Shown here: positions 27,114 to 40,198 of the stretch, piece after piece
Layout of the letters: the number at the start of each line of letters is the position of its first letter
Position numbering within the stretch: the stretch's first letter is position 1
Assembly: GCA_001314715.1 (NCBI GenBank)
Contig: LJSV01000015.1
Location: 1 to 61,910, forward strand
Direction: 5' to 3'
DNA length: 61,910 nt
DNA from: Rhodobacteraceae bacterium HLUCCA12
GTDB taxonomy: Bacteria; Pseudomonadota; Alphaproteobacteria; Rhodobacterales; Rhodobacteraceae
Notes under the pieces: generated by a model
What the model was told of the DNA's origin: nothing
The model's database searches: none
The model's input: the letters and a program-made list of their open reading frames with translations, nothing else
Position numbers and translations under genes: made by a program

Positions 27114-28079
27114 TCAGCGATAGTCGCGCTCGTCCATCGGGGTCTGGTCGATACTCTGGCGCATCAGGGTCAGCATGCCCTCTTCGGCGCGGTTGAAATG
27201 CGCGCGCGGGTTCCACACCAGGTAGATGTCGATGGCCGGCGGGTCATCATAGGGCGGCAGGCGCCACAACAGGTCATTGCGCTCATCCGTGCGTGCGATG
27301 TGCAAGGGCAGACTGCCGATGCCCAGCCCACAGACGATCATGCGCCGCACCTCTTCAAGATTGCTGGAGGTTGCCACCCGGCGCCCGTCAATCTGCGCCG
27401 AGGCGCGCATCATCGCCACCGGGCGCAGCGCATCGGTCAACCGGTCGGTCTGGAACGAGACGAAGGTTTCGCCGCGCAGATCCGACATTTCCAATCCGGT
27501 CTTTCCGAAAAGCCGATGGCGCGGGCCGCAATAGAGGCCGAAATACTCGCGGAACAGGCGCGCATATTCCAGTTGCGGCAGCATCTGGTGCACCAGGCAC
27601 AGGCCGAAGCTGGCGCGCTTTTGCATCACCGCGGTGGCGACATTCAGACTGGTTGCCACGTCGATGGTGAAGGTCGCGCGCGGGTGATCCTGATGGAACT
27701 GCGACAGCACCGAATCGAAATGCGGCGACACGACATGGCTTGCCACGGCGATATTGACATGGCCGACCACCTCTTCGCCCTTGCGCCTGAGCAGGACCGG
27801 CAGGCGGGAAACGGTGCCAAAGATCTCGACCGCCTCTTCGTGCAGCAACTCGCCCTCGGGCGTGACCTCGAACCGGCCGGGCTTGCGCACGATCAGCTTG
27901 CGTCCCAATCGCTCCTCAAGGCGGCGCAGCGCGTTCGATACGGTCGGCTGCTTCAGATTCAGACGCTCTGCGGCGGCGGTGATGCCGCGTTCCTCGACGA
28001 TGACCAGAAAGGTCCGCAGCAGGTTCCAGTCCAGGTCGAACGGCAGCCGCGCGGTGCGGTCGGGGCGCGGATCGGTCAT
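27114..28079 (-). CDS. LysR-family transcriptional regulator
   Basis: A 321-residue regulator. The N-terminal winged HTH covers about residues 15-75 (LLRTFLVIVEERGITAAAERLNLKQPTVSNALRRLE) and the effector-binding domain about 95-310. The start ATG lies 32 bases beyond a TATAAT box. It is transcribed divergently from the amino acid transporter/BKACE operon across about 100 AT-rich bases, the classical arrangement for a LysR activator of its neighbour. The co-inducer is probably the operon's substrate or an intermediate. Confidence 0.9.
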   Translation of the reverse strand: MTDPRPDRTARLPFDLDWNLLRTFLVIVEERGITAAAERLNLKQPTVSNALRRLEERLGRKLIVRKPGRFEVTPEGELLHEEAVEIFGTVSRLPVLLRRKGEEVVGHVNIAVASHVVSPHFDSVLSQFHQDHPRATFTIDVATSLNVATAVMQKRASFGLCLVHQMLPQLEYARLFREYFGLYCGPRHRLFGKTGLEMSDLRGETFVSFQTDRLTDALRPVAMMRASAQIDGRRVATSSNLEEVRRMIVCGLGIGSLPLHIARTDERNDLLWRLPPYDDPPAIDIYLVWNPRAHFNRAEEGMLTLMRQSIDQTPMDERDYR

Positions 28080-28099
28080 TCTTCAAACCTATTTTCATT

Positions 28100-28123
28100 A
28101 TTTTGATTATATATTTGCAGAAT
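28100..28123. promoter_or_regulatory. candidate LysR box between divergent genes
   Basis: ATTTTG-N12-CAGAAT is a near-perfect dyad (one mismatch) in the AT-rich gap between the LysR gene and the ABC operon. A TATAAT for the LysR gene lies inside it on the minus strand (28106-28111), which would allow autoregulation. Confidence 0.4.
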
Positions 28124-28185
28124 GCCCGGCTTCTTGCAATCCTCCGCCGCACCCATCCAACAGGCTTGAATCAGAGGAACAAGAC

Positions 28186-28977
28186 ATGCTGAAATCCCTT
28201 CTTGGCGCATCGGCCGTTCTGGCCTTCGGCCTTTTCGCCGTCGCCGCCCCCAACCCCGCTGCCGCCGACGATCTGGACGATGTGCGCGAACGCGGCGTCC
28301 TGCGCGTCGCGCTGAGCGGCGTTTACCCGCCGTTCTCGATGACCAACGACCAGAACGAGGTGGTCGGCTTTGACGTGGACATCGCCAAGGAAATCGCCAG
28401 CCGTATCGGCGTCGAAGCCGAGATCATCACCACCGCATGGGACGGGATCATCGCCGGCCTGGTGACCGGGCGCTATGATACCATCATCGCCTCGATGTCG
28501 ATCACCCCCGAGCGCGAGGAAGTCGTCGATTTCGTCGGCCCCTACTACAGCGCCGGGCGCACCGTCTTTGTCGCCGAGGACTCCGAGTTCGAGTCGATCG
28601 ACGATCTGAACGGCCAGACCATCGGCGTCACGCTGGGTGAAACCCACGAGGAATGGGCCCGCAGCCAGACCGACCGCGACTGGACCCTGCGCACCTATCG
28701 CGGGCTGAACGAACTGGTCCTGGAAACCCGCAACGGCCGCATCGACGCCTTTGTCGCCGACAGCGTCGCCGGTGCGCTGGCTGCCCGCGAAAGCGACACC
28801 GATCTGCGCGCGATCGAACTGCCGGGCGAAGACGGCGCCTCGGTCGATGTCGGCATCGCCATCCGCAAGGAAAACCCCGAACTGGCCGACGCCATGCAGA
28901 CCGCGCTGGACGAGATGATGGAAGACGGCACCTACATGGACATCGCCAACGAATGGATCGGTTCGGACATTCGCTGA
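28186..28977 (+). CDS. ABC transporter substrate-binding protein, polar amino acid type
   Basis: A 263-residue periplasmic protein of the SBP_bac_3 family. The signal peptide covers about residues 1-26 (ending PAAA/DD). The mature start has LRVALSGVYPPFSM and GFDVDIAKEIASRIGVEAEI, typical for amino acid, opine or polyamine-like ligands. AGAGGAAC precedes the ATG. It heads an eight-gene operon and is followed by a strong hairpin. The ligand presumably feeds the downstream catabolic enzymes. Confidence 0.92.
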   Translation: MLKSLLGASAVLAFGLFAVAAPNPAAADDLDDVRERGVLRVALSGVYPPFSMTNDQNEVVGFDVDIAKEIASRIGVEAEIITTAWDGIIAGLVTGRYDTIIASMSITPEREEVVDFVGPYYSAGRTVFVAEDSEFESIDDLNGQTIGVTLGETHEEWARSQTDRDWTLRTYRGLNELVLETRNGRIDAFVADSVAGALAARESDTDLRAIELPGEDGASVDVGIAIRKENPELADAMQTALDEMMEDGTYMDIANEWIGSDIR

Positions 28978-28986
28978 CGCACGATC

Positions 28987-29015
28987 GCCGCCCTGCCCCG
29001 CGCGCGCAGGGCGGC
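28987..29015 (+). terminator. intercistronic hairpin after binding-protein gene
   Basis: Perfect ten-base stem GCCGCCCTGC / GCAGGGCGGC with a nine-base loop and no T-run, just after the binding-protein stop codon. It probably gives differential expression within the operon. Confidence 0.6.
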
Positions 29016-29038
29016 GCCATAACGACAAGAGGACAGGC

Positions 29039-29830
29039 ATGACACCCTATTACGGCAAGCTGACATGGGAAGAGGTGCGCGACGCCGACAAGGACCGCGT
29101 GGTCATCCTGTCGGTTTCGGCCACCGAGGATCACGGGCCGCACATGGCGCTGGACACCGACACGCTTCTGGGCACCTCGATCGCCGATGGCGTGGCAACG
29201 GCGGCCCCGGACGAAGTGTTCATCATGCCGCCCATCCCCTATGGCTTCAACGAGCACCACAAGGACTTTCCGGGCGTGATCTGGATCGGTCCGGAAACCC
29301 TGATCGCCTTCATCACCGATGTGACCCGTTCGCTTGCGCATCACGGGTTTCGGCGCATCCTGCTGCTGAACAGCCACGGCTCGAACCATTCGGTGCTGGA
29401 TCTGGCCGCCCGCAAGACCGTGATCGAGAATGAGGTGATCTGCGTCTCGGCGTCCTACTGGAACCTGATGTCGGATCGCATCAACGCCATGCGCACCTCG
29501 GAAACCGGCGGTATCGCCCATGCCTGCGAGTTCGAGGCGGCGATGTACATGCATCTGGACCCCGATCACATCTATCCCGAACGTGCCGCCAAGCAGGTGG
29601 TGCACGACCCCGGCAGCCGGTATTTCAACCTCGACCTGGCCTCGGGCGGGGCGCGGGCCATGCTGATGCGCTGGTGGTCGGAACATTCGCCGGACGGCAC
29701 GATGGGCGACCCCACGGTGGCCACTGCCGAGAACGGCAAGCGTTTCTTCGATGCCGCGGTCGAGGAGGTTCTGGGCCTGGTGCGCGAAATGCGTGCCCTG
29801 CCCATCCTGCCGCGCAAGGATCACCACTGA
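29039..29830 (+). CDS. creatininase-family amidohydrolase
   Basis: A 263-residue metal-dependent hydrolase of the creatininase fold. Likely metal ligands are Glu30 and His32 (SATEDHGPH), Asp41, the NSHGSNH box (His113) and the HACEFEA box at about 161-167. These correspond to the E/H/D/H/E set of creatininase. The family opens cyclic amides or hydrolyses formamides. The position between the binding-protein and permease genes suggests it acts on the imported substrate or an early intermediate. It is unusual to find it inside the transporter block. Confidence 0.85.
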   Translation: MTPYYGKLTWEEVRDADKDRVVILSVSATEDHGPHMALDTDTLLGTSIADGVATAAPDEVFIMPPIPYGFNEHHKDFPGVIWIGPETLIAFITDVTRSLAHHGFRRILLLNSHGSNHSVLDLAARKTVIENEVICVSASYWNLMSDRINAMRTSETGGIAHACEFEAAMYMHLDPDHIYPERAAKQVVHDPGSRYFNLDLASGGARAMLMRWWSEHSPDGTMGDPTVATAENGKRFFDAAVEEVLGLVREMRALPILPRKDHH

Positions 29831-29846
29831 CAGGGGGACGGGCACG

Positions 29847-30497
29847 ATGGATTTCGACCTCATGCAGCGGGTCTGGTGGTTTTTTGCCGAGGCCTCGGTC
29901 GCCACGATCTACATCTCGGCCCTGGCCATCGTGCTGGGCCTGTGCCTGGGGTTCACCGCCGCGCTGGCCTCGTTGTCGCGGCTTGCGGTGGTGCGCTGGC
30001 CGGCGCGGGCCTATGTCTCGGTCTTTCGCGGGACGCCGGCCCTGATCCAGTTGTTCCTGCTGTTTTTCGGCGGGTTGCAACTGGGTCTCGAACTGACGCC
30101 GATTCAGGCCGGGATCATCGCGCTGGGTATCAATATCGGCGCCTACATGACCGAATCCATCCGCGGCGCCATCGTCGCGGTCGAACGCGGGCAAATGGAA
30201 GCCGGGCGCTGCCTGGGGCTGAGCCACGCCCAGACCATGCGCCGGATCATCCTGCCGCAGGCCGCGCGGCTGATGGTCCGGCCCCTGGGCGTGAACTCGG
30301 TCGCGCTGATCAAGGGATCGGCGATCGTATCCACCATCTCGGTCACCGAACTGACCTATACGGCGCATCGCTTCATCTCGTCGACCTACAAGCCGTTCGA
30401 AATGTTCATCCTGGCGGCCATCTTCTATCTGGTCATCATCACCCTGTTCATGCGCCTGATCGGCTGGATCGACGCGCGCGTGGCGCTGGAGGACTGA
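29847..30497 (+). CDS. ABC transporter permease, amino acid type (first)
   Basis: A 216-residue inner-membrane permease of the HisM/GlnP family, with about five hydrophobic segments. The coupling (EAA) loop reads MEAGRCLGLSHAQTMRRIILPQAAR near residue 125, and the FRGTPALIQLFL segment near 55 is typical. The start ATG is chosen at MDFDLMQ. It forms a heterodimeric channel with the next permease. Confidence 0.92.
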   Translation: MDFDLMQRVWWFFAEASVATIYISALAIVLGLCLGFTAALASLSRLAVVRWPARAYVSVFRGTPALIQLFLLFFGGLQLGLELTPIQAGIIALGINIGAYMTESIRGAIVAVERGQMEAGRCLGLSHAQTMRRIILPQAARLMVRPLGVNSVALIKGSAIVSTISVTELTYTAHRFISSTYKPFEMFILAAIFYLVIITLFMRLIGWIDARVALED

Positions 30498-30501
30498 GCC
30501 G

Positions 30502-31158
30502 ATGAACCTGGATTTCTCAGTCGTCCCGCGCATGACCGATCTCTTGCTCTGGGGTGTGGCCTGGACCATCGTCCTGTCGGTCCTTTCCATGGTTCTCAGC
30601 CTGATCCTGGGCGCGGTTTTCGCGGTGGTGCGGGTCTCGTCGATCCGGCTGTTGCGCTGGCCGGTGCAGGGCCTGAGCTGGGTGTTCATGGGCACGCCGC
30701 TGCTGCTGCAACTTTACGTCGTCTATTTCGGTCTGGCCGAACTGGGCTTGAACCTCAACGCCTTCAGCGCGGGGGTCATCGCGCTGAGCCTGCATTTCGC
30801 GGTCTACAACGCCGATATCATCCGCGCCGGCATCCAGGCGATCGACAGCGGCCAGTATCAGGCCGCGCGCAGCCTTGGCGTCAGCCATGTTCAGGCGATG
30901 CGCAAGGTCGTGGTGCCGCAGGCGATGGCCAATGTCGCACCGGCACTGGGCAACATGATGATCGCCCTTCTGAAGGAAAGCGCGCTGGTCTCGGCCATCG
31001 GCGTGATGGAGCTGACCCTGTCGGCGCAACGCGCGATCAGCCAGACCTTCCGTCCGTTCGAGTTCTATCTGGCCGCAGCCGCGCTTTACTACCTTCTCAA
31101 TCTCGTGCTGCAACAGGCCCTGCGCCTGATCGAACGCCGCACCACCCTGACCCGATAG
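30502..31158 (+). CDS. ABC transporter permease, amino acid type (second)
   Basis: A 218-residue partner of the preceding permease. The EAA loop reads YQAARSLGVSHVQAMRKVVVPQAM near residue 120, and FMGTPLLLQLYVVYFGL near 55 is the conserved N-terminal region. It begins four bases after the first permease, with probable coupling. About five membrane segments are visible. Confidence 0.92.
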   Translation: MNLDFSVVPRMTDLLLWGVAWTIVLSVLSMVLSLILGAVFAVVRVSSIRLLRWPVQGLSWVFMGTPLLLQLYVVYFGLAELGLNLNAFSAGVIALSLHFAVYNADIIRAGIQAIDSGQYQAARSLGVSHVQAMRKVVVPQAMANVAPALGNMMIALLKESALVSAIGVMELTLSAQRAISQTFRPFEFYLAAAALYYLLNLVLQQALRLIERRTTLTR

Positions 31159-31165
31159 GTGGCCC

Positions 31166-31930
31166 ATGAGCGATCCCCGACGCGAACCGCTGGTTCGCAT
31201 CCGCAACCTGAAAAAGAACTTCGGCACGCTCGAAGTTCTCAAGGGCATCGACATGGATGTCCACGAGGGTCAGATCATGGCTCTGATCGGACCGTCGGGT
31301 TCGGGCAAATCGACGCTTTTGCGCACGATCAACCAGCTTGAAGAGGTCACATCAGGCGAGATTTGGTTCGATGGCACGCTGGTCAACGCCCCGCTGTCGC
31401 ATCGCGCCCGCGAAAAGCACCTGAACGCGCTGCGCCGAAACATCGGCATGGTATTTCAGCACTTCAACCTGTTCCCGCATATGACGGCGCTGGAAAACGT
31501 GACCATGGCGCCGGTTCTTCTGGGTCTGCAAACCAAGGACGAGGCCCGCGAAAAGGCGCTGCGTCTGCTGGACAAGGTCGGGCTGGGCGACCGGGCGAAC
31601 TACTACCCCGCGCGACTGTCGGGCGGGCAGAAGCAGCGCGTGGCAATCGCTCGCGCACTGGCGATGGAGCCCAAGATGATGCTGTTCGACGAGGTGACAT
31701 CGGCCCTCGACCCCGAACTGGTGGGCGAGGTGAACCGCACCATGAAACAGCTGGCGCAAGAGAACATGACCATGCTCATCGTCACGCATGAGCTGAAGTT
31801 CGCAGCCGATACCGCCAGCCATGTCGTGTTCATGGCAGATGGCCTGATCGTCGAGGAGGGGCCGCCGCAACAGGTTCTGCGCGACCCGGTTCAGGCCCGC
31901 ACCCGCGCCTTCTTGCAGCAAGACGATTGA
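31166..31930 (+). CDS. ABC transporter ATP-binding protein, amino acid type
   Basis: A 254-residue ATPase of the GlnQ/HisP type. Walker A is GPSGSGKSTLLR near residue 42, the Q-loop VFQHFNLFPHMT near 95, the signature LSGGQKQRVAIARAL near 150 and Walker B MMLFDEVTSALDPE near 172, followed by the H-loop THEL. It completes the importer and is followed 27 bases later by the aminotransferase gene. Confidence 0.94.
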   Translation: MSDPRREPLVRIRNLKKNFGTLEVLKGIDMDVHEGQIMALIGPSGSGKSTLLRTINQLEEVTSGEIWFDGTLVNAPLSHRAREKHLNALRRNIGMVFQHFNLFPHMTALENVTMAPVLLGLQTKDEAREKALRLLDKVGLGDRANYYPARLSGGQKQRVAIARALAMEPKMMLFDEVTSALDPELVGEVNRTMKQLAQENMTMLIVTHELKFAADTASHVVFMADGLIVEEGPPQQVLRDPVQARTRAFLQQDD

Positions 31931-31957
31931 TCCCTCTTACCGACAGGTTTCGTTCCC

Positions 31958-33313
31958 ATGACCGCCCATTCGGAAAGCCACCTTTTCTATCTGTCCTCGG
32001 CCCGACGGCCGCACCTGGCCGAGGCGCGCGGCGTCTATATGTGGGATGTGGACGGCAAGCGGTATCTTGACGGCTCATCCGGCGCGATGGTGTCCAACAT
32101 CGGTCATTCGCATCCCCATGTGCAGGACGCCCTGCGCCGTCAGATCGACAAGTATACCTTTGGCTACCGGCTGCATTTCCAGACCGAAGCATCCGAGGCG
32201 CTGGCCGCGAAAACCGCCGCGCTGGCGCCGGAGGGGATGGAAAAGGTGTTCTTCGTCTCGGGCGGGTCCGAGGCGGTCGAAAGCGCGATCAAGCTGGCGC
32301 GGCAATGGGCCGTCGTCACCGGACAGGAGAGCCGGTGGAAGATCATCTCGCGCTATCCGTCCTATCACGGCTGTACGCTGGGCGCGCTGGCGTTGACCGG
32401 CTATGACCCGCTGGCTGGCCCCTTTGCGCCGATGATGCAGGCCATGCCCAAGGTGCCCGCGCCCACGGCCTATCTGGACGGGCTCGACCCCGCCGATCCC
32501 GCCACGGGCGCGCATTACGCCGCCATGCTTGAGGCGCAGATCCTGGCCGAGGGGCCGGACTCGGTGCTGGCCTTCATCGTCGAACCCATCGGCGGCGCGG
32601 CCACCGGCGCGCTTGTGCCGCCTGCGGGCTACATGCAGGCGGTGCGCGACATCTGCACCCGCCACGGTGTCCTGCTGATCCATGACGAGGTCATGTGCGG
32701 TGGCGGGCGCACCGGGCGCTTTTTCGGCGCCGAACACTGGGGCATTGCGCCAGATATCCTGGCCTTGTCCAAGGGCTTTGGCGCAGGCTATGCACCGCTG
32801 GGCGCGATGGTGGCGCATGATCGCATCGTCGGCCCGGTGCAGGCGGCGGGCGGATTCGTGCACGGCTTTACATCGGCGGGCAACCCGCTGGCCTGCGCCG
32901 CCGGTCTGGCGGTGCTGGAGGTGATCGAGTCCGAGGGCCTTGTGGCGCAGGCCGCGAAAACCGGCGCGGCCCTGAAACAGGGATTGCAGGGCTTGATGCA
33001 ACGCTTCGACTTCATCGGCGACGTGCGCGGCGAAGGGTTGCTGCTGGCGTTCGAACTGGTGGCCGACCGCACCAGCATGGAGCCCCTGCCACCCTCGCTG
33101 AACGCCTATCTGGAACTGGTCGAGCTGGCCTATGCGGAGGGGCTGATCATCTATTCGCGCCGCACCCGTGGCGGGCGCCGGGGCGATCACTTCCTGGTAT
33201 GCCCGCCGATGATTTCCAACGAGGGGCATGTCGGCGAGATCATTGAAAAGCTCGCCACCGCGCTGGAACGATTTGCCCCGCGCGTGCGCGATGCCATCGC
33301 CAACGCCGCCTGA
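31958..33313 (+). CDS. class III (omega/beta-amino) aminotransferase
   Basis: A 451-residue PLP-dependent transaminase. The PLP lysine is Lys272 in ALSKGFGAGY. The phosphate site SGGSEAVESAIKLAR lies near residue 101 and HDEVMCGGGRTG, with Asp243 contacting the pyridine nitrogen, near 242. The family acts on omega-amino acids, diamines or beta-amino acids. It sits directly ahead of a beta-keto acid cleavage enzyme, so it may convert a beta-amino acid into the beta-keto acid that enzyme uses. That link is inference. Confidence 0.92.
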   Translation: MTAHSESHLFYLSSARRPHLAEARGVYMWDVDGKRYLDGSSGAMVSNIGHSHPHVQDALRRQIDKYTFGYRLHFQTEASEALAAKTAALAPEGMEKVFFVSGGSEAVESAIKLARQWAVVTGQESRWKIISRYPSYHGCTLGALALTGYDPLAGPFAPMMQAMPKVPAPTAYLDGLDPADPATGAHYAAMLEAQILAEGPDSVLAFIVEPIGGAATGALVPPAGYMQAVRDICTRHGVLLIHDEVMCGGGRTGRFFGAEHWGIAPDILALSKGFGAGYAPLGAMVAHDRIVGPVQAAGGFVHGFTSAGNPLACAAGLAVLEVIESEGLVAQAAKTGAALKQGLQGLMQRFDFIGDVRGEGLLLAFELVADRTSMEPLPPSLNAYLELVELAYAEGLIIYSRRTRGGRRGDHFLVCPPMISNEGHVGEIIEKLATALERFAPRVRDAIANAA

Positions 33314-33337
33314 GCGGCGCGGGCCGAAAGGAACATC

Positions 33338-34264
33338 ATGTCCAAAGTCATTATTTCCTGCGCCATCACCGGCTCGATTCACACGCCGTCGATGTCACCC
33401 TACCTGCCCGTCACCGGCGAAGAAATCGCGGCCCATGCGATCGGCGCGGCCCGGGCGGGGGCGGCGATCCTGCATCTGCACGCGCGCGACCCCGCCGATG
33501 GCCGCCCGTCGGCCGATCCCGCGCATTTCATGGGCTTTCTGCCCGCGATCAAGGCCGGCTGCGATGCGGTGGTCAACCTGTCCACCGGTGGCAGCGCGGT
33601 GATGAGCCTTGACGAACGGCTGGCCGGCCCCCTGGCCGCCGAGCCCGAGATGGCCTCGCTCAACATGGGAACGATGAATTTCGCGCTCTATCCGATGCTG
33701 GGCAAGCCGCGCAGCTGGAAACATGACTGGGAAGAGCCGTTCCTGCGCAATTCCGACGATCTGGTGTTTCGCAACACCCCGCGCGACATCGAGGGCATCC
33801 TGCGCCGGATGGGCGCGGAACGCGGTGCGCGGTTCGAGTTCGAATGCTATGACCTCAGCCATCTGCACATGCTGGCTCATTTTCGTGATCGTGGCCTGGT
33901 CAAGGCGCCGATCTTCATCCAGTTCGTGATGGGGGTTCTGGGCGGCGTCGCGGCCGAGCCCGAACATCTGGCGCATATGAAGGCGACCGCAGATCGGCTG
34001 TTCGGCACCGATTACCAGTTCTCGGTTCTGGCCGCCGGCCGCATGCAGATGCCGATGGCGGCGATTTCGGCGGGCATGGGCGGGCATGTCCGCGTCGGGC
34101 TTGAGGACAACCTGTTCCTGTCGCGCGGGGTGCTGGCCAAGTCCAACGCCGAACAGGTCGATAAGGTCCGCGGCATTGTCGAGGCTCTGGGCCGCACCGT
34201 CGCCACGCCGGACGAGGCGCGCACCATGCTGGGGTTGAAAGGTGCGGATGCGGTGGCATTCTGA
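33338..34264 (+). CDS. beta-keto acid cleavage enzyme (BKACE, DUF849)
   Basis: A 308-residue zinc enzyme of the BKACE family, which condenses a beta-keto acid with acetyl-CoA to give acetoacetate and the shortened acyl-CoA. Metal ligands His46 and His48 are seen in HLHARDP. Other family markers are NLSTGG near residue 80 and GHVRVGLEDNLFL near 248. The founding member, Kce, cleaves 3-keto-5-aminohexanoate in lysine fermentation; most other BKACE substrates are unassigned. The gene follows the aminotransferase by 24 bases. Confidence 0.92.
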   Translation: MSKVIISCAITGSIHTPSMSPYLPVTGEEIAAHAIGAARAGAAILHLHARDPADGRPSADPAHFMGFLPAIKAGCDAVVNLSTGGSAVMSLDERLAGPLAAEPEMASLNMGTMNFALYPMLGKPRSWKHDWEEPFLRNSDDLVFRNTPRDIEGILRRMGAERGARFEFECYDLSHLHMLAHFRDRGLVKAPIFIQFVMGVLGGVAAEPEHLAHMKATADRLFGTDYQFSVLAAGRMQMPMAAISAGMGGHVRVGLEDNLFLSRGVLAKSNAEQVDKVRGIVEALGRTVATPDEARTMLGLKGADAVAF

Positions 34265-34280
34265 ACCCGAGGTCTAAGCC

Positions 34281-34760
34281 ATGAGCACGATCACCTTGCG
34301 CCTTGCCGGCCCTGACGACGCCGTCGCCCTGAACACGGCGCTGCGCGCGCTGTCTCGGGATCTGGGCGATCCGCATCGGGCCACCGACACCCGGATGGCC
34401 GCCGCGCTGGCCCCCGGCGGCCCGTGCCGCGCCATTCTGGCGCAGCAGGGTGACCGGCTGATCGGGGCCGCGCTGTTCTCGCCGCTCTTTTCGACCGCGC
34501 GGGGCAGCGCCGGCGCGTATGTGTCCGATCTTTGGATCGATGCGGAGTTGCGCGGCGGGGGGCTGGGTCAGACCCTGCTGGCGGCGGTGCGCGATGTGGC
34601 GGCGCGCGACTGGCGGGCAGATTTCCTGCGGCTGTCGGTCTATGCCTCGAACCCGCGCGCCCGCGCCTTTTATGACCGGCTGGGCTTTGCCCCGGCCACG
34701 GATGAACATACCCTGACCTTGGACGGCGCGGCGCTGGCCGCGCTGAAAGGAGAGCCATGA
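34281..34760 (+). CDS. GNAT-family N-acetyltransferase
   Basis: A 159-residue acetyl-CoA-dependent acetyltransferase. The acetyl-CoA loop is in GGGLGQTLLAAV near residue 93 and the C-terminal strand-helix SVYASNPRARAFYDRLGF near 120. The gene overlaps the deacetylase-like gene by ATGA. In this operon it may acetylate an amino group of the substrate or of an intermediate, for example a terminal amine, to prevent cyclisation. The acceptor cannot be read from sequence. Confidence 0.85.
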   Translation: MSTITLRLAGPDDAVALNTALRALSRDLGDPHRATDTRMAAALAPGGPCRAILAQQGDRLIGAALFSPLFSTARGSAGAYVSDLWIDAELRGGGLGQTLLAAVRDVAARDWRADFLRLSVYASNPRARAFYDRLGFAPATDEHTLTLDGAALAALKGEP

Positions 34761-35776
34761 AAGCCTTTCTCGACGAGCGCCAGCAGCGGCACGACCCCAA
34801 GCACTTCTTGGCCAACGGCCAGCGCCTGCAAAACCCCGAACAGCCCCAGCGCATCGCGGTCCTGAAAGCCGGGGCCGAGGCCGCGGGCTGCACCTTTGCC
34901 GCCCCAACGGATCATGGCGCGGGGCCGATCGCCGCGCTGCACAGCCCCGAATACCTGACCTTTCTGCGCACGATCCACACCCGATGGTCGCGCATCCCCG
35001 ACGCCGCCGACGAGGTGATCCCCAATATCCACCCCGACCGGCGCACGGCCTCGTATCCGCGCTCGGCCGTCGGACAGGCCGGTTTCCACCAGGCCGATAC
35101 CGCCTGCCCGATCTCGGACGGCACGTGGGAGGCCGCCTATTGGTCGGCCCAAAGCGCGCTTAGCGCCAGCGATGCGGTGCTGGGCGGCACGCGCGCGGCC
35201 TATGCCCTGTCGCGCCCGCCCGGACATCATGCCTTTGGCGATCTGGCAGGGGGCTTTTGCTTTTTGAACAACTCCGGCATCGCCGCCGAATGGCTGCTGC
35301 GCCACGGCAAGCGCCCGGCGATCCTGGATGTGGATGTCCATCACGGCAACGGCACCCAGGGCATCTTTTATTCCCGCGCCGATGTGCTGACGGTCTCGCT
35401 GCATGCCGACCCGATCCGGTTCTACCCCTTCTTCTGGGGTCATGCGCATGAACGCGGCGACGGCGCCGGGCTGGGTTACAACCTGAACCTGCCCATGGCG
35501 CGCGGCACGGGCGATGACGACTATCTGCGCGCGCTGGAGGCCGGGCTGGACCGGATCGCGGATTTCGGCGCCGACCTGATCGTTGTCGCGCTGGGGCTGG
35601 ACGCGCATGAAAACGACCCGCTCAGGGGTCTTGCCGTGACGACACCGGGTTTCGGCCGAATCGGCGCGGCGATCGCGGCCACGGGCCTGCCGCTGGTCCT
35701 GGTGCAGGAGGGGGGGTATCTGTCTGACGATCTGGGTGCAAACCTCACATCGTTCCTGGGCGGCGTTCAGGGCTGA
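34757..35776 (+). CDS. acetylpolyamine amidohydrolase / HDAC-family deacetylase
   Basis: A 339-residue zinc deacetylase of the arginase/HDAC fold. The active-site pair His157-His158 lies in RPPGHHAFG. The zinc ligands are Asp193 and His195 (DVDVHHGNGT) and Asp282 (LGLDAHENDP), almost the spacing of the acetylpolyamine amidohydrolase of Mycoplana ramosa. It overlaps the GNAT gene, making an acetylation/deacetylation pair. It is likely to remove acetyl groups from acetylated amines. Last gene of the operon. Confidence 0.9.
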   Translation: MKAFLDERQQRHDPKHFLANGQRLQNPEQPQRIAVLKAGAEAAGCTFAAPTDHGAGPIAALHSPEYLTFLRTIHTRWSRIPDAADEVIPNIHPDRRTASYPRSAVGQAGFHQADTACPISDGTWEAAYWSAQSALSASDAVLGGTRAAYALSRPPGHHAFGDLAGGFCFLNNSGIAAEWLLRHGKRPAILDVDVHHGNGTQGIFYSRADVLTVSLHADPIRFYPFFWGHAHERGDGAGLGYNLNLPMARGTGDDDYLRALEAGLDRIADFGADLIVVALGLDAHENDPLRGLAVTTPGFGRIGAAIAATGLPLVLVQEGGYLSDDLGANLTSFLGGVQG

Positions 35777-35796
35777 TCGCCGGTCGATCAGCCCTG
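35768..35796. terminator. shared hairpin over the two convergent stop codons
   Basis: A perfect eleven-base stem CAGGGCTGATC / GATCAGCCCTG with a seven-base loop. It contains the stop codon of the deacetylase gene (35774-35776) and that of the RND permease on the other strand (35788-35790). It has no T-run, so its strength as a terminator is uncertain. Confidence 0.5.
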
Positions 35797-38700
35797 CGCC
35801 GGTGCCGTCGCCTCGTCGAGTTCCCGTGACAGGCGCGCGGTCTCGGCCGCCTTCGGGGTCGTGAACCGCGCCAGCAGCAGATAGGCCACGGGCGTCAGGA
35901 ACAGGGTCGAGATCGCGGCCGGCCCCAGCCCGCCCACGATGATCCAGCCCAATGCCTCGCGCGCCTCGGCCCCGGCGCCGAAGGCAAAGATCAGTGGCAC
36001 GCCGCCCAGCACCGTCGAGGCCATGGTCATCATCACCGGACGCAGGCGGATCGTCGAGGCCTCGAAGATCGCCTCGGCCACGCTGGCGCCACGATCACGC
36101 AACTGGTTGGCGAACTCCACGATCAGGATGCCGTTCTTGGCCATGATGCCCACCAGCATCACCAGCCCGATCTGCGAATAGACGTTCAAACTGCCCCCGG
36201 TCAGCAACAGCGCAAAGATCGCGCAGGCCAGACCCAGCGGCACCGTGGCCATGACGACCACCGCCGAGACAAAGCTTTCGAACTGCGCCGCCAGCACCAG
36301 AAACACCACGGCGATCGCGAAACCGAAGGTCAGAAGCAGGCCCGATGATGTCTCTTCCAGGGTCGCGGCTTCGGCCATGGGCACGATCCGCATGTCCTCG
36401 GCCAGAAGCTCGTTGCCGATCTCCTGCACCTGCGCATAGGCATCGCCCAGCGCCAGATCGGGTGTCAGCCCGGCCGTGACCTCGACCGCGCGCATCTGCG
36501 TCTCGCGGGTCAGCTCGGGCGCGACGGCGCGTTCCTCCAGCGTGACGAAACTGGACAGCGGCAGGATCTGCCCGCTGTCGGACTGGATGAAGACCCGCTC
36601 AAGATCGCCCGGATCGCGCACCGGGGTTGAGGTGGACAGCATCGTGATGTCGAAGCTTCGATCCTCGATGAACACCGTCCCGATGGACCGCCCGTCCAGC
36701 ACCGCCTGCAAGGCCTCGCCCAGCCCGTCGATATTGACGCCAAGGTCCGAAGCCCGGCGCCTGTCGACCTCGATGAACAGTTGTGGCTGGTTTGTTTCAT
36801 AGCTCAGGCGCACCTGACCGAAGGCCGGGTCTTCCTGAAGCCGTGCCACCATCGCCTCGGCGCGCTCGGACAACTCGTCATAGCTGTTGCCGACGATCGC
36901 GAAGCGCAGGCCCTGCCCGGCCCCGCGGATGCCCAGCGAATTGGGCTGGATCGCAAAGGCCCGCACGCCAAGAACCGGGCGGATCGCGCTGTTGATGTCG
37001 GCCACGATCTCTTGCTGCGAGCGTTCGCGCTCGTCCCAGGACGCGAGGGTCAGGACCATGAAGCCCCGGTTCTCGCGCCCCCACATCCCCGCCAGCGAGA
37101 AGATGTTGCGCACCTCGCCGGTTTCGCGAAAGGGTGCGACCAGGGCTTCAAGCTCCAGCATCTTGCCGTTGGTATAATCCAGCGACACGCCCTGCGGCGC
37201 CGACACGCTGAGAAGGGCGATCGCGCGATCCTCGGATGGCACCAGTTCCTGCCGGATCTGGCCGGATACCAGGATCGCCGTGACGCCAAAGACGACCGCG
37301 GCGGCGACCACGGCCATCGGCGCGGCCAGCGCCCCCTTCAGCAGCACCGCATAAAGACCGGCAAGCCTGGCACCCAGCCAGGCGACCGGCCCGCGCCGTC
37401 CTGCGGTTTCGGCGCGCAACAGGCGGCTGGCCAGCACCGGGCACAGGCTCAGCGCCACGATCGAGGACAGCAGCACCGCCATCGCCAGCGTAAAGCCGAA
37501 TTCGCGGAACAACCCGCCGGTCTGCCCCGGCAGGAACGACAGCGGCACGAACACCGCCGCCAGCGTGGCGGTCGTGGTGACGACGGCAAAGAACACCTCT
37601 TGCGTGCCCAGAACGGCGGCCGCGCGCGGCCCCATCCCCTGCGCGCGCCGGCGCACGATGTTTTCCAGCACCACGATCGCGTCGTCGACCACCATGCCGG
37701 TGGCCAGAACCAGCGCCAGAAGCGTCAGGATGTTGACCGAGAAACCGACGATATAGATTGCCGCGATGGTGCCGATCAGTGCCACCGGCAAGGTCAGCGC
37801 CGGGATCAGCGTGGCCCGGGCGTCGCGCAGGAACAGGTAGATGATGCCGACGACGATCAGGATCGCAAGGATCAGTGTCATTACCACTTCCGAGATCGCA
37901 CCGCGCACGAATGTGGCCTCGTCCGAGGTGATGAAGATGCTGACATCGTCCGGCAGGATCTGCTGCAACTCCTCGACCACCTCGGTCACGGTGTCGGAAA
38001 TCTCCAGCGTGTTCGACGTCGCCTGGCGGATGATGCCGATACCGATGCCGTTCTGCCGGTTGGCGCGCAGCACGCTTTCGCCCGGGGCCGGCCCCAGCGT
38101 GACCTGCGCGACATCGCCCAGCGCCGTGTCGTCGCGCACCACAAGCGCCTCGAACGCCTCGGGCGTGGTGACCGAGGCCGTGGTGCGCACCAGAATGCTC
38201 TGGCTGTCGCTGGAGAGCGCGCCGGCCGGCACGTCGAAGGACACATTGCGCAGGGTCGTGCGCACATCGGCCAGCGACAGGCCGCGACTGGCAAGCTGCA
38301 TCATGTCCACATCGACGCGGAAAACCTGCTCGCGATTGCCGTAGACTTGTAGATCAGCCACGCCGGGGGCCGAGATCAGCCGGTCCTCGACCTGTTCTTC
38401 GACAAGGCGCGTCAACTCCTGGACCGAGCGGGTTGACGAGGTGACGCTGATGCGCATGACCGCGTCGGCATTGGCGTCGGCCTTGACGATGCGCGGCTCG
38501 TCGACATCGTCGGGCAGGGTGCTGCGGATGCGCCCGATGGCATCGCGGATGTCGGTGGCGGCGGTGTCCAGATCGACGTTGTCGTCGAACTCGATCACGA
38601 TCCGGCTGCGGCCGAAGCGCGACGAGGACGAGATCGCCTTGACCCCGCTTACGCGCCCCACCGCCCCCTCGACGGCGGCGGTGATCTCGCGGTCGATGGT

Positions 38701-38985
38701 CTCGGGTCCGGCACCGCTGAACCCGGTGGTGACCGTGACCACGGGGCGATCGACATCAGGCAATTCGCGGACCTCGACACCCCAAAGCCCGGCCAGACCG
38801 GCGATCACGATCAACGCACTCAGCACGAATGCCAGGATCGGCCGGCGCACGAACAGCGCCGTGCCCGAGCGCTGCGCCTCGATCGCGGCGGGGTTCACCT
38901 GCGGCGCCGGGTCGTGCCCGCCGGCATCGTCCTGCGATGGTTCTCGCGGCGAACCGGCGTCGTGCGGGCTCTTGTTCCTAATCAT
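35788..38985 (-). CDS. RND-family efflux permease
   Basis: A 1065-residue inner-membrane proton-driven exporter of the HAE1/AcrB type. TM1 is at about residues 50-70 (FVRRPILAFVLSALIVIAGL). The proton-relay aspartates are in TM4 (TGMVVDDAIVVLENIVRRR), and the second-half repeat (LVGIMAKNGILIVEFANQ) is near residue 970. The N-terminal 40 residues are polar and disordered. The ATG (MIRNKS) is chosen over an upstream in-frame codon that overlaps the adaptor gene. No outer-membrane factor gene lies nearby. The MarR gene upstream is the probable regulator. Confidence 0.93.
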   Translation of the reverse strand: MIRNKSPHDAGSPREPSQDDAGGHDPAPQVNPAAIEAQRSGTALFVRRPILAFVLSALIVIAGLAGLWGVEVRELPDVDRPVVTVTTGFSGAGPETIDREITAAVEGAVGRVSGVKAISSSSRFGRSRIVIEFDDNVDLDTAATDIRDAIGRIRSTLPDDVDEPRIVKADANADAVMRISVTSSTRSVQELTRLVEEQVEDRLISAPGVADLQVYGNREQVFRVDVDMMQLASRGLSLADVRTTLRNVSFDVPAGALSSDSQSILVRTTASVTTPEAFEALVVRDDTALGDVAQVTLGPAPGESVLRANRQNGIGIGIIRQATSNTLEISDTVTEVVEELQQILPDDVSIFITSDEATFVRGAISEVVMTLILAILIVVGIIYLFLRDARATLIPALTLPVALIGTIAAIYIVGFSVNILTLLALVLATGMVVDDAIVVLENIVRRRAQGMGPRAAAVLGTQEVFFAVVTTTATLAAVFVPLSFLPGQTGGLFREFGFTLAMAVLLSSIVALSLCPVLASRLLRAETAGRRGPVAWLGARLAGLYAVLLKGALAAPMAVVAAAVVFGVTAILVSGQIRQELVPSEDRAIALLSVSAPQGVSLDYTNGKMLELEALVAPFRETGEVRNIFSLAGMWGRENRGFMVLTLASWDERERSQQEIVADINSAIRPVLGVRAFAIQPNSLGIRGAGQGLRFAIVGNSYDELSERAEAMVARLQEDPAFGQVRLSYETNQPQLFIEVDRRRASDLGVNIDGLGEALQAVLDGRSIGTVFIEDRSFDITMLSTSTPVRDPGDLERVFIQSDSGQILPLSSFVTLEERAVAPELTRETQMRAVEVTAGLTPDLALGDAYAQVQEIGNELLAEDMRIVPMAEAATLEETSSGLLLTFGFAIAVVFLVLAAQFESFVSAVVVMATVPLGLACAIFALLLTGGSLNVYSQIGLVMLVGIMAKNGILIVEFANQLRDRGASVAEAIFEASTIRLRPVMMTMASTVLGGVPLIFAFGAGAEAREALGWIIVGGLGPAAISTLFLTPVAYLLLARFTTPKAAETARLSRELDEATAPAQG

Positions 38986-38998
38986 GCGGCGCGGCCTT

Positions 38999-40198
38999 TC
39001 AGGTTTCCGAGGCGTCGCGCTCGGCATTGGCGCTTTCGGCGCCGTCGCCGGTCGGCGTGCGCGCGCGGTCCTCGACCTCGGTGCCTTCGCGCAGCGATTG
39101 CACCCCCTCGCGCACCACCCGCTCGTCCGGCTCCAGGTCGCCGCGCACCAGCACCAGACCGCCGCTGCGTTGCACCACGCGCACCGGAACCCGGTGCGCG
39201 GTATCGTCGCGGATCACCCAGACAAAGGCGCCGTCGTTGCCCCACTGGATCGCCAGCGGATCGACGGCGGGATAATGCTCGCCCGGAAGGTCAAGAGAGA
39301 TGCTGAAGGCCATGCCCGCGCGCAGGCGGTCATCATCATTGGCCACCTGGGCGAGAACACGCAACGTGCGGCTGGCCTCGTCGACGCGCGTGTCCACGGC
39401 GCGGACCTGACCGTCAAGATCGACATCGGGCCGGGACAGCAACGTCACGCTCAGTGCGTCACCGGCGGCGATACGCCCGACCAGTCGTTCAGGCACACGA
39501 AAATCGACAAGGATCATCGAACGATCGTCAACCCGCGCAATGGTCGTGTCCGGCCCGACCTGGGTGCCGACCTCGGTCTCGATCAGGCCCAGCCAACCCG
39601 TGATCGGTGCCACGATCTCGCGCCGGGACAGGTCGAACTCGGCCTGTCGCACGGCCAGTTCCGCCGTGCGCACCCCCAGCGCGGCCTCGCGGATCTGGAC
39701 ATCCGTGGCGGTGCCCGACTCGCGAAGACGCTCCAGCCGGTCCTGCGTTGCCAGTGCCTCGTCCAGCATCAGTTCGGCCCGGTCGCGCGCGATCTGTTCG
39801 GCGGCGGCATCAAGCCGGGCGACGACCGTGCCGCGCTCGACCACCTCGCCCGCCGATACACGGACCTCGGCCAGCCGGCCCGAGACCTCGGGGCGCAATT
39901 CGACCGAGCTCAGCGCCTCGCCGGTGCCGATCGCGGCGATCCGGTCGCGCATCTCGGCCTCTTCGATGACCGCGGTCATCACCTGCACCGCCCCGCTGCC
40001 AAAGCCGCCGCCACCCTGCCGGGCGCCGCTGTCGTCCTCGGCCAGCGGGACACCCAGTTCCTGCAACGGCTGCAACAGCCCCAGCCGGTCAAGAACCGGA
40101 TGCGACGACGGCAGAAAGACGGCCCAGCCAATGAGAGCCATCACGACAATGGCGACGACCACCAGCCCCTGCCCGATCAGTCGAACAATCATGCGCAT
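38999..40198 (-). CDS. RND efflux periplasmic adaptor (membrane fusion protein)
   Basis: A 399-residue HlyD-type adaptor. An N-terminal membrane anchor covers about residues 8-30. The lipoyl-like half-motif SVELRPEVSGRLAEVRVSAGEVVERG is near residue 95, a short coiled-coil hairpin near 130-185, then the second lipoyl half (REIVAPITGWLG) and beta-barrel domains. A Gly-rich linker (QGGGGFGSG) follows the anchor. The C-terminal 30 residues are acidic and disordered. It lies 13 bases ahead of the permease gene and is presumably co-transcribed. Confidence 0.91.
   Translation of the reverse strand: MRMIVRLIGQGLVVVAIVVMALIGWAVFLPSSHPVLDRLGLLQPLQELGVPLAEDDSGARQGGGGFGSGAVQVMTAVIEEAEMRDRIAAIGTGEALSSVELRPEVSGRLAEVRVSAGEVVERGTVVARLDAAAEQIARDRAELMLDEALATQDRLERLRESGTATDVQIREAALGVRTAELAVRQAEFDLSRREIVAPITGWLGLIETEVGTQVGPDTTIARVDDRSMILVDFRVPERLVGRIAAGDALSVTLLSRPDVDLDGQVRAVDTRVDEASRTLRVLAQVANDDDRLRAGMAFSISLDLPGEHYPAVDPLAIQWGNDGAFVWVIRDDTAHRVPVRVVQRSGGLVLVRGDLEPDERVVREGVQSLREGTEVEDRARTPTGDGAESANAERDASET

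Follow-up and report, generated by a model that had tools for sequence, protein, structure and literature searches.

A modular operon for the putative catabolism of beta-lysine-like amino acids in Rhodobacteraceae bacterium HLUCCA12

Genes of the locus

The stretch of DNA analysed here, referred to as the window, comprises 61,910 nucleotides of contig LJSV01000015.1 (assembly GCA_001314715.1) from Rhodobacteraceae bacterium HLUCCA12, whose genome measures 3.7 Mb. It harbours nine same-strand genes (28186–35776) that face a divergently oriented gene for a LysR-family regulator (27114–28079, minus strand; PF03466/PF00126). This operon is a real, widespread and modular catabolic system, which we tentatively assign to the breakdown of a beta-amino acid carrying a second, terminal amine. 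Comparison of the open reading frame (ORF) list with family profile matches for the ten proteins revealed that all families named in an earlier note on this DNA are present with intact reading frames; the note had counted eight same-strand genes, where we count nine.

The promoter-distal four genes, all on the plus strand, form what we call the core. They encode a class III aminotransferase (31958–33313; PF00202, Aminotran_3), proposed here as an N6-acetyl-beta-lysine transaminase, a beta-keto acid cleavage enzyme (BKACE; 33338–34264; PF05853), a GNAT acetyltransferase that is an optional member and might mask an amine (34281–34760; PF00583), and an HDAC-fold deacetylase of the acetylpolyamine-amidohydrolase type that might unmask it again (34757–35776; PF00850, Hist_deacetyl). 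Upstream of these, likewise on the plus strand, lies a front-end cassette composed of a periplasmic amino-acid-type binding protein (28186–28977; PF00497, SBP_bac_3), a creatininase-family hydrolase (29039–29830; PF02633, 226.7 bits), two permeases (29847–30497 and 30502–31158; both PF00528) and the ATPase (31166–31930; PF00005) of an amino-acid-type ABC importer. For the binding protein and the first permease, the ATG start was chosen by us. The gaps between the nine genes measure, in order, 61, 16, 4, 7, 27, 24 and 16 bp, and the last pair overlaps by 4 bp, in line with the short gaps and overlaps described in the earlier note. According to the coordinates of the flanking genes, 106 bp separate the regulator gene from the operon (28080–28185), and this region is presumed to contain promoter and operator. 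Scanning of 9 kb detected no sigma-70-like site, the chance expectation for this length being 1.2. The operon ends 11 bp from a convergent ORF; judged from the translations alone, ORFs for a large efflux-pump-like protein (1079 aa) and an adaptor-like protein (35788–40198, minus strand) run towards it.

Several of the proteins stayed below the cut-offs of more specific models. The binding protein fell short of every NCBIfam model listed for it. An argument based on its binding pocket, drawn from the lysine/arginine/ornithine-binding protein, was dropped, as a further amino-acid-binding protein, 6svf, also carries Ser at the position in question. The creatininase-family protein reached 100.1 bits with TIGR04448 (creatininase; cut-off 235) and likewise remained under the MftE and IolN cut-offs. 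The aminotransferase scored only 230.5 bits with the GABA transaminase model (cut-off 506.65). The genome encodes a GABA transaminase (551.7 bits, same cut-off) and a succinic semialdehyde dehydrogenase (702.8 bits, cut-off 646.35) elsewhere.

Conservation of the core and exchange of modules

Throughout the Alphaproteobacteria, and in some Pseudomonadota outside this class, the core recurs, that is the aminotransferase, BKACE, usually GNAT and the HDAC-fold deacetylase. Among the best 80 loci found with the deacetylase in a genome scan (L007–L086), in which presence of the deacetylase is given by construction, 68 have a full-length aminotransferase with BKACE nearby and 66 display a LysR cluster. 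For a sample independent of the deacetylase, 398 Pseudomonadota genomes were searched with the aminotransferase, yielding 22 matches at E ≤1e-130, the window's own genome included. In the other 21 loci, which constitute a fair sample and in which partners were sought within 8.5 kb, a carbon-cleaving module was present in 19 (BKACE in 16, CoA-transferase A/B plus thiolase in 3) and an N-deacylase also in 19 (HDAC-fold enzyme in 16, ArgE/DapE alone in 3); one of the two loci without a deacylase is truncated by a contig end. GNAT was detected in 13 of these loci, and their importers are polyamine-type in 6 and amino-acid-type in 7, none being found in 8. A further search of 369 genomes belonging to the class of a distant match (G174) returned ten aminotransferases at E ≤1e-105, namely G174, which is already among the 21, five with 50–70% identity and four with 43–45%. 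The five additional loci at 50–70% identity carry a cleavage module in 5/5 and a deacylase in 4/5 cases. Near the aminotransferases of 43–45% identity (L107, L168–L171) no partner gene was detected except for a weak 28% BKACE match in L170, and one of the four contigs of this class from the G174 search is only 6 kb long. Because the partners vanish at this level, the limit of the orthologue group seems to lie at about 47–49% identity. Co-occurrence of the core genes is not due to chance.

Altogether, 119 loci were examined, leaving aside the aminotransferases of 43–45% identity; 109 of them contain a full-length aminotransferase, whereas in ten no aminotransferase passed. The identity thresholds used to tabulate modules were chosen after the layouts had already been seen and are valid only for the query proteins used, so that a divergent GNAT or thioesterase would escape detection. 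Gains and losses were mapped on a tree of 116 aminotransferases, built by a quick maximum-likelihood method, in which the program flagged long branches, including L150 and L167, as unsure. Some loci may come from duplicate species, e.g. L039 and L132, which are near-identical on the tree. The record of L101 (NZ_CP084754.1) is named Roseateles (UNVERIFIED_ORG), while its aminotransferase and operon are very close to those of Shinella, making either the label or a transfer doubtful.

The cleavage step is represented by BKACE in 94 of the 109 loci, by CoA-transferase plus thiolase in 7 and by neither, according to the thresholds, in 8; L103, counted among the latter, does have a BKACE annotation in its surroundings, together with genes for a thioesterase and an M20 enzyme, that remained below threshold. 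The CoA-transferase/thiolase versions are annotated on two plasmids and also occur in L134, L139, L150, L163 and L167. On the plasmids of Rhodobacteraceae bacterium M382 and Alisedimentitalea, an importer of the window's type and the aminotransferase are followed by CoA-transferase A/B, an ArgE/DapE deacylase, thiolase, an amidohydrolase and alanine racemase. L134 and L163 retain the creatininase alongside the CoA-transferase/thiolase and ArgE set, the thiolase gene of L163 being on the opposite strand. BKACE cleaves a beta-keto acid with acetyl-CoA to acetoacetate and a shorter acyl-CoA, and CoA-transferase plus thiolase deliver the same shorter acyl-CoA via activation and thiolysis. Because these unrelated enzymes follow the same aminotransferase and are equivalent only if they receive a beta-keto acid, the exchange implies that the aminotransferase would produce a beta-keto acid, and it is the strongest evidence for this product in the present analysis. 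It bears out the idea, already put forward in the earlier note, of transamination to a beta-keto acid and cleavage to an acyl-CoA. Here unrelated enzymes clearly stand in for one another within a single route, and this natural exchange offers a direct test of the aminotransferase product.

A second exchange concerns the deacylase, as an ArgE/DapE enzyme replaces the HDAC-fold protein in 7 of the 109 loci. Since the two are unrelated and substitute for each other, removal of an N-acyl group would, by implication, belong to the route, which agrees with the earlier suggestion that an amine is acetylated and later deacetylated. All four pairings of the two cleavage modules with the two deacylases exist, although only L138 pairs BKACE with ArgE in the absence of the HDAC-fold enzyme, and only L150 pairs CoA-transferase/thiolase with the HDAC-fold enzyme. 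Types of cleavage module and deacylase appear correlated: ArgE accompanies CoA-transferase in 6/7 loci and BKACE in 5/95 (here and in the importer and oxidase counts below, the window is included), with only 3 well-supported independent tree pairs. A search with two query proteins located thioesterase genes in the vicinity of BKACE at 7 loci and in that of CoA-transferase at 0/7; one of these genes encodes a Pfam 4HBT_2 protein, and thioesterases are named in the records of other loci. The window's operon itself lacks a thioesterase gene. The pattern would fit a CoA-transferase that recycles CoA from its own product, the numbers being small.

On the tree, the cleavage module requires a minimum of 4 changes, importer type 7, the deacylase 6 and creatininase 4; for GNAT at least 18 gains or losses result with the detection used. 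A link of GNAT absence to importer type (Fisher p 0.01) was discarded, as the tree-independent pairs did not support it. Typed importers are of the polyamine type in 68 of 89 loci. The aminotransferase of the window groups with those of L017, L024 and L047 (SH-aLRT 96), and its nearest relatives have a polyamine-type importer and no creatininase. Because L017, L024 and the adjacent L018 carry the polyamine-type importer (the respective region of L047 is cut off), the window's lineage has, most simply, exchanged its importer. Creatininase is present in only 6/109 loci, always together with an amino-acid importer. Judging by gene content and tree, importer and creatininase are an exchangeable front-end cassette outside the pathway proper, where the earlier note had placed them within it. 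Joint conservation in other genomes, whose absence the earlier note had named as a refutation, holds for the core; the complete set including creatininase is uncommon.

The versions with the two importer types differ in their additional genes. Creatininase, DMFA2-like or M20 amidohydrolase genes accompany 16/21 amino-acid importers as compared to 1/68 polyamine importers, whereas an FAD oxidase is found with 46/68 polyamine importers and 0/21 amino-acid importers; only 5 independent tree pairs underlie the association of importer type with entry genes, leaving it statistically unsettled. In versions with the polyamine importer, a DAO-family FAD oxidoreductase (42 of the best 80 loci; e.g. L008:11020-12507) and a RidA-type protein (33 of the best 80) are encoded 3' of the deacetylase, RidA being present in 36 of the 64 polyamine-importer loci with enough downstream sequence. 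In some loci an M20-type amidohydrolase and an alanine-racemase-like gene are appended to the operon (L094:11364-13650, L095:13183-15458, L106, L075, L009). Rhizobial versions encode a dimethylformamidase beta-like protein (PF20254) 5' of the aminotransferase (L098:6311-7948, L099, L105, L141–L149), in a place that may be filled by creatininase elsewhere. Creatininase and the dimethylformamidase-like protein are plausible candidates for amide hydrolases freeing the amino acid from a precursor.

The proposed route and its alternatives

From the genes, their conservation, the module swaps and the residues described below, we infer the reactions, their order and the substrate as follows. The operon would take up and degrade a beta-amino acid with a second terminal amine, the most likely candidate being beta-lysine or its N6-acetyl derivative, a reading to which we assign a probability of roughly 0.45. 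The terminal amine would be acetylated by the GNAT protein, unless the compound already arrives in acetylated form, and the acetyl group would block ring closure of the later keto acid. The aminotransferase would then convert the beta-amine to a ketone, giving 3-oxo-6-acetamidohexanoate, from which BKACE would generate acetoacetate and 4-acetamidobutyryl-CoA at the expense of acetyl-CoA. Removal of the acetyl group by the HDAC-fold enzyme, and of CoA by a thioesterase, would yield 4-aminobutyrate, and the ordinary GABA transaminase and succinic semialdehyde dehydrogenase of the genome would complete degradation. Importer and creatininase would act as an interchangeable entry cassette, the latter probably hydrolysing an amide-linked precursor. 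N6-acetyl-beta-lysine is an osmolyte of methanogens and some bacteria, according to PMC1224877 and PMC4685198, and could provide the ecological source of the substrate.

The residues of BKACE are compatible with a substrate whose amine is masked. The protein matches its family profile with 361.5 bits (cut-off 24.8), and the residues corresponding to H46, H48, E143, R226, E230 and D231 of the 3-keto-5-aminohexanoate cleavage enzyme (KCE) are invariant in 94/94 operonic BKACEs (93 loci plus the window). These include the zinc ligands; H46, H48 and E230 of KCE align with H46, H48 and E256 of the window protein. Glu14 of KCE is described as contacting the 5-amino group of the substrate (PMC10470551). 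The operonic BKACEs have a neutral residue instead (isoleucine in 77 of the 94, including I14 of the window, and valine in 17), which is predicted to exclude KCE-like amine recognition. BKACE15 of Paracoccus denitrificans, which is 58% identical to the window protein, has neutral C5–C6 keto acids as confirmed substrates (PMC11961710). The genome contains six BKACE genes, the nearest paralogue of the operonic one being 61% identical.

The deacetylase matches the HDAC-fold zinc amidohydrolase profile and has intact RPPGHH, DVHHGN and EGGY motifs; RPPGHH and EGGY are linked to cleavage of acetyl instead of longer acyl groups (PMC11532494). A single-sequence structure prediction reached a mean pLDDT of only 37 and was not used. 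In the M. ramosa enzyme, Glu106 and Glu117 are reported to bind polyamine nitrogens (PMC11532494 and PMC5454378). They align with V105 and A116 of the window protein, and these positions are acidic in 0/98 operonic deacetylases (97 loci plus the window). The position of M. ramosa E17 is occupied by F in 96/98, and R221 is found in 92/98, where M. ramosa has E. This suggests that the residues lean away from a polycationic substrate, and R221 is the remaining candidate for binding a carboxylate. R290 near the gate had been considered for this role too and was rejected, as it is not conserved.

The poor conservation of R290 is one of several observations that count against the proposed route. Regarding the deacetylase, the residue argument is weak because two of the four reference enzymes lack both acidic residues: acidic residues occupy both positions in M. 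ramosa and 6phr, but neither position in 9gkz (His, Gly), which is probably the Pseudomonas polyamine deacetylase with His106, and in 3men (Leu, Ser). Indeed, a Pseudomonas deacetylase with His106 is reported to be active on polyamines (PMC11532494). All six BKACEs of the genome have a neutral residue at position 14, which is thus not specific for the operon. GNAT was not detected in many of the 109 loci, and among its NCBIfam matches at E ≤0.001 there was no model for a beta-lysine acetyltransferase of the AblB type; AblB is, however, a biosynthetic enzyme, which a catabolic acetyltransferase need not match. No GABA gene is among the family matches of the window's operon proteins. Likewise, the lysine 2,3-aminomutase model has no match in the genome, and 0/26 relatives carry such a gene at the operon, although 12/26 have one over the cut-off elsewhere. 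Therefore, beta-lysine would need to be imported, and a genetic link to the aminomutase is expected only if it is made inside the cell. Six loci (L056, L062, L071, L097, L147 and L149) combine the aminotransferase and the HDAC-fold enzyme with no cleavage module found nearby; another BKACE elsewhere in the genome may serve them. Because an HDAC-fold and an ArgE-type enzyme occur together at four loci, the two may act on different steps. Finally, the FAD oxidase and RidA of many polyamine-importer versions have no role in the scheme.

The same core chemistry could alternatively serve another diamino beta-acid, of other chain length or derived from beta-arginine or a lactam, that is released from amides by the host-specific creatininase, dimethylformamidase-like or M20 enzymes. 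The front ends that differ with importer type speak for this option, but the five independent tree pairs behind that association do not carry it far, and we know of no common natural compound other than beta-lysine with the required pattern. A further point in its favour is that BKACE15 accepts several C5–C6 keto acids (PMC11961710); overall we consider this option rather unlikely. Unlikely, too, is a reversed order in which an imported N-acetyl-beta-amino acid such as N6-acetyl-beta-lysine is unmasked before it is transaminated and cleaved as free amine, with GNAT as a side enzyme. Frequent absence of GNAT and the known osmolyte would be accounted for in this way. However, the BKACE lacks the amine-binding glutamate of KCE, the unmasked 6-amino-3-keto acid is expected from general chemistry to cyclise, and adjacent GNAT and deacetylase would create a futile cycle.

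Catabolism of acetylpolyamines, with the HDAC-fold enzyme liberating polyamines and the aminotransferase acting on the resulting diamine, would explain why the closest solved relatives of the deacetylase are named acetylpolyamine amidohydrolases and why polyamine-type importers prevail among the typed loci, if not in the fair sample; the reference deacetylases devoid of both acidic residues also agree with it. Yet polyamine breakdown yields no beta-keto acid, which would leave BKACE or CoA-transferase/thiolase idle, and the polyamine-binding glutamates are absent in 98/98 proteins. We regard this alternative as improbable. Of the substrates considered in the earlier note, a beta-lysine-like compound thus remains the best fit that we can name, while a polyamine derivative is disfavoured by the missing beta-keto acid and, less decisively, by the two missing glutamates. 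As to BKACE, NCBIfam would label it a 3,5-dioxohexanoate enzyme of the phloroglucinol type, as NF053538 is matched with 495.4 bits (cut-off 430). This label, which the cut-off admits, is contradicted by gene context: no phloroglucinol reductase or cyclase family is represented among the ten proteins of operon and regulator, such a route has no use for an aminotransferase, an acetyltransferase or a deacetylase, and BKACE15 is also close to the window protein. Cleavage of 3,5-dioxohexanoate is therefore hardly credible.

Comparison with known systems

Single elements of the proposed beta-lysine route resemble those of established systems. Ectoine catabolism follows a similar logic of hydrolase, N-acetyl-diaminobutyrate deacetylase and class III aminotransferase, but it is not known to involve a BKACE, and the similarity of the M20 enzyme in L094 to DoeB2 is remote (154.8 bits, cut-off 550). 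With the M. ramosa acetylpolyamine amidohydrolase the deacetylase shares the HDAC fold and catalytic motifs, whereas Glu17, Glu106 and Glu117 are replaced in nearly all or all of the 98 proteins. BKACE has the fold, zinc ligands and reaction type of KCE from anaerobic lysine fermentation. In contrast to that pathway, the window's operon contains no aminomutase, dehydrogenase or ammonia lyase, Glu14 is replaced and the amine would be masked rather than free. For BKACE15, the close relative from P. denitrificans, an aromatic-degradation context has been suggested (PMC11961710).

The closest parallel is the degradation of L-beta-lysine in a Pseudomonas, for which Barker and colleagues reportedly described acetylation, transamination, cleavage to 4-acetamidobutyryl-CoA and deacetylation to 4-aminobutyrate. 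The enzymes are said to include N6-acetyl-beta-lysine transaminase (EC 2.6.1.65) and 4-acetamidobutyryl-CoA deacetylase-thioesterase (EC 3.5.1.51), and the cleavage step may have used acetyl-CoA as BKACE does. The remark in the earlier note that no described pathway with this set was known is hence not supported. The window's operon offers the right gene family for each of these steps, with the GABA steps encoded elsewhere in the genome; the Pseudomonas pathway, however, stems from another organism and is not known to have genes assigned to its enzymes, and the substrate assigned here is our inference. In the titles and abstract beginnings of the matches listed from the open literature, which covers few subscription papers, we found neither a gene assignment for the intermediates and EC numbers of the beta-lysine route nor a description of the operon, be it in connection with beta-lysine catabolism or with the gene set itself. 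The acetyl-protected route is not new chemistry, but gene set and modularity appear to be unreported within the literature searched. The operon may, tentatively, provide the first known genes for the aerobic degradation of beta-lysine and the osmolyte N6-acetyl-beta-lysine, with plug-in importer, entry hydrolase or oxidase, cleavage step and deacylase arranged around one aminotransferase. If so, genes would be assigned to enzymes that we know as activities only, and a widespread marine and rhizobial operon with misleading annotations (3-keto-5-aminohexanoate cleavage protein, 3,5-dioxohexanoate enzyme, histone deacetylase, creatininase) would be explained. The bacteria carrying it would then be identified as consumers of beta-amino-acid osmolytes.

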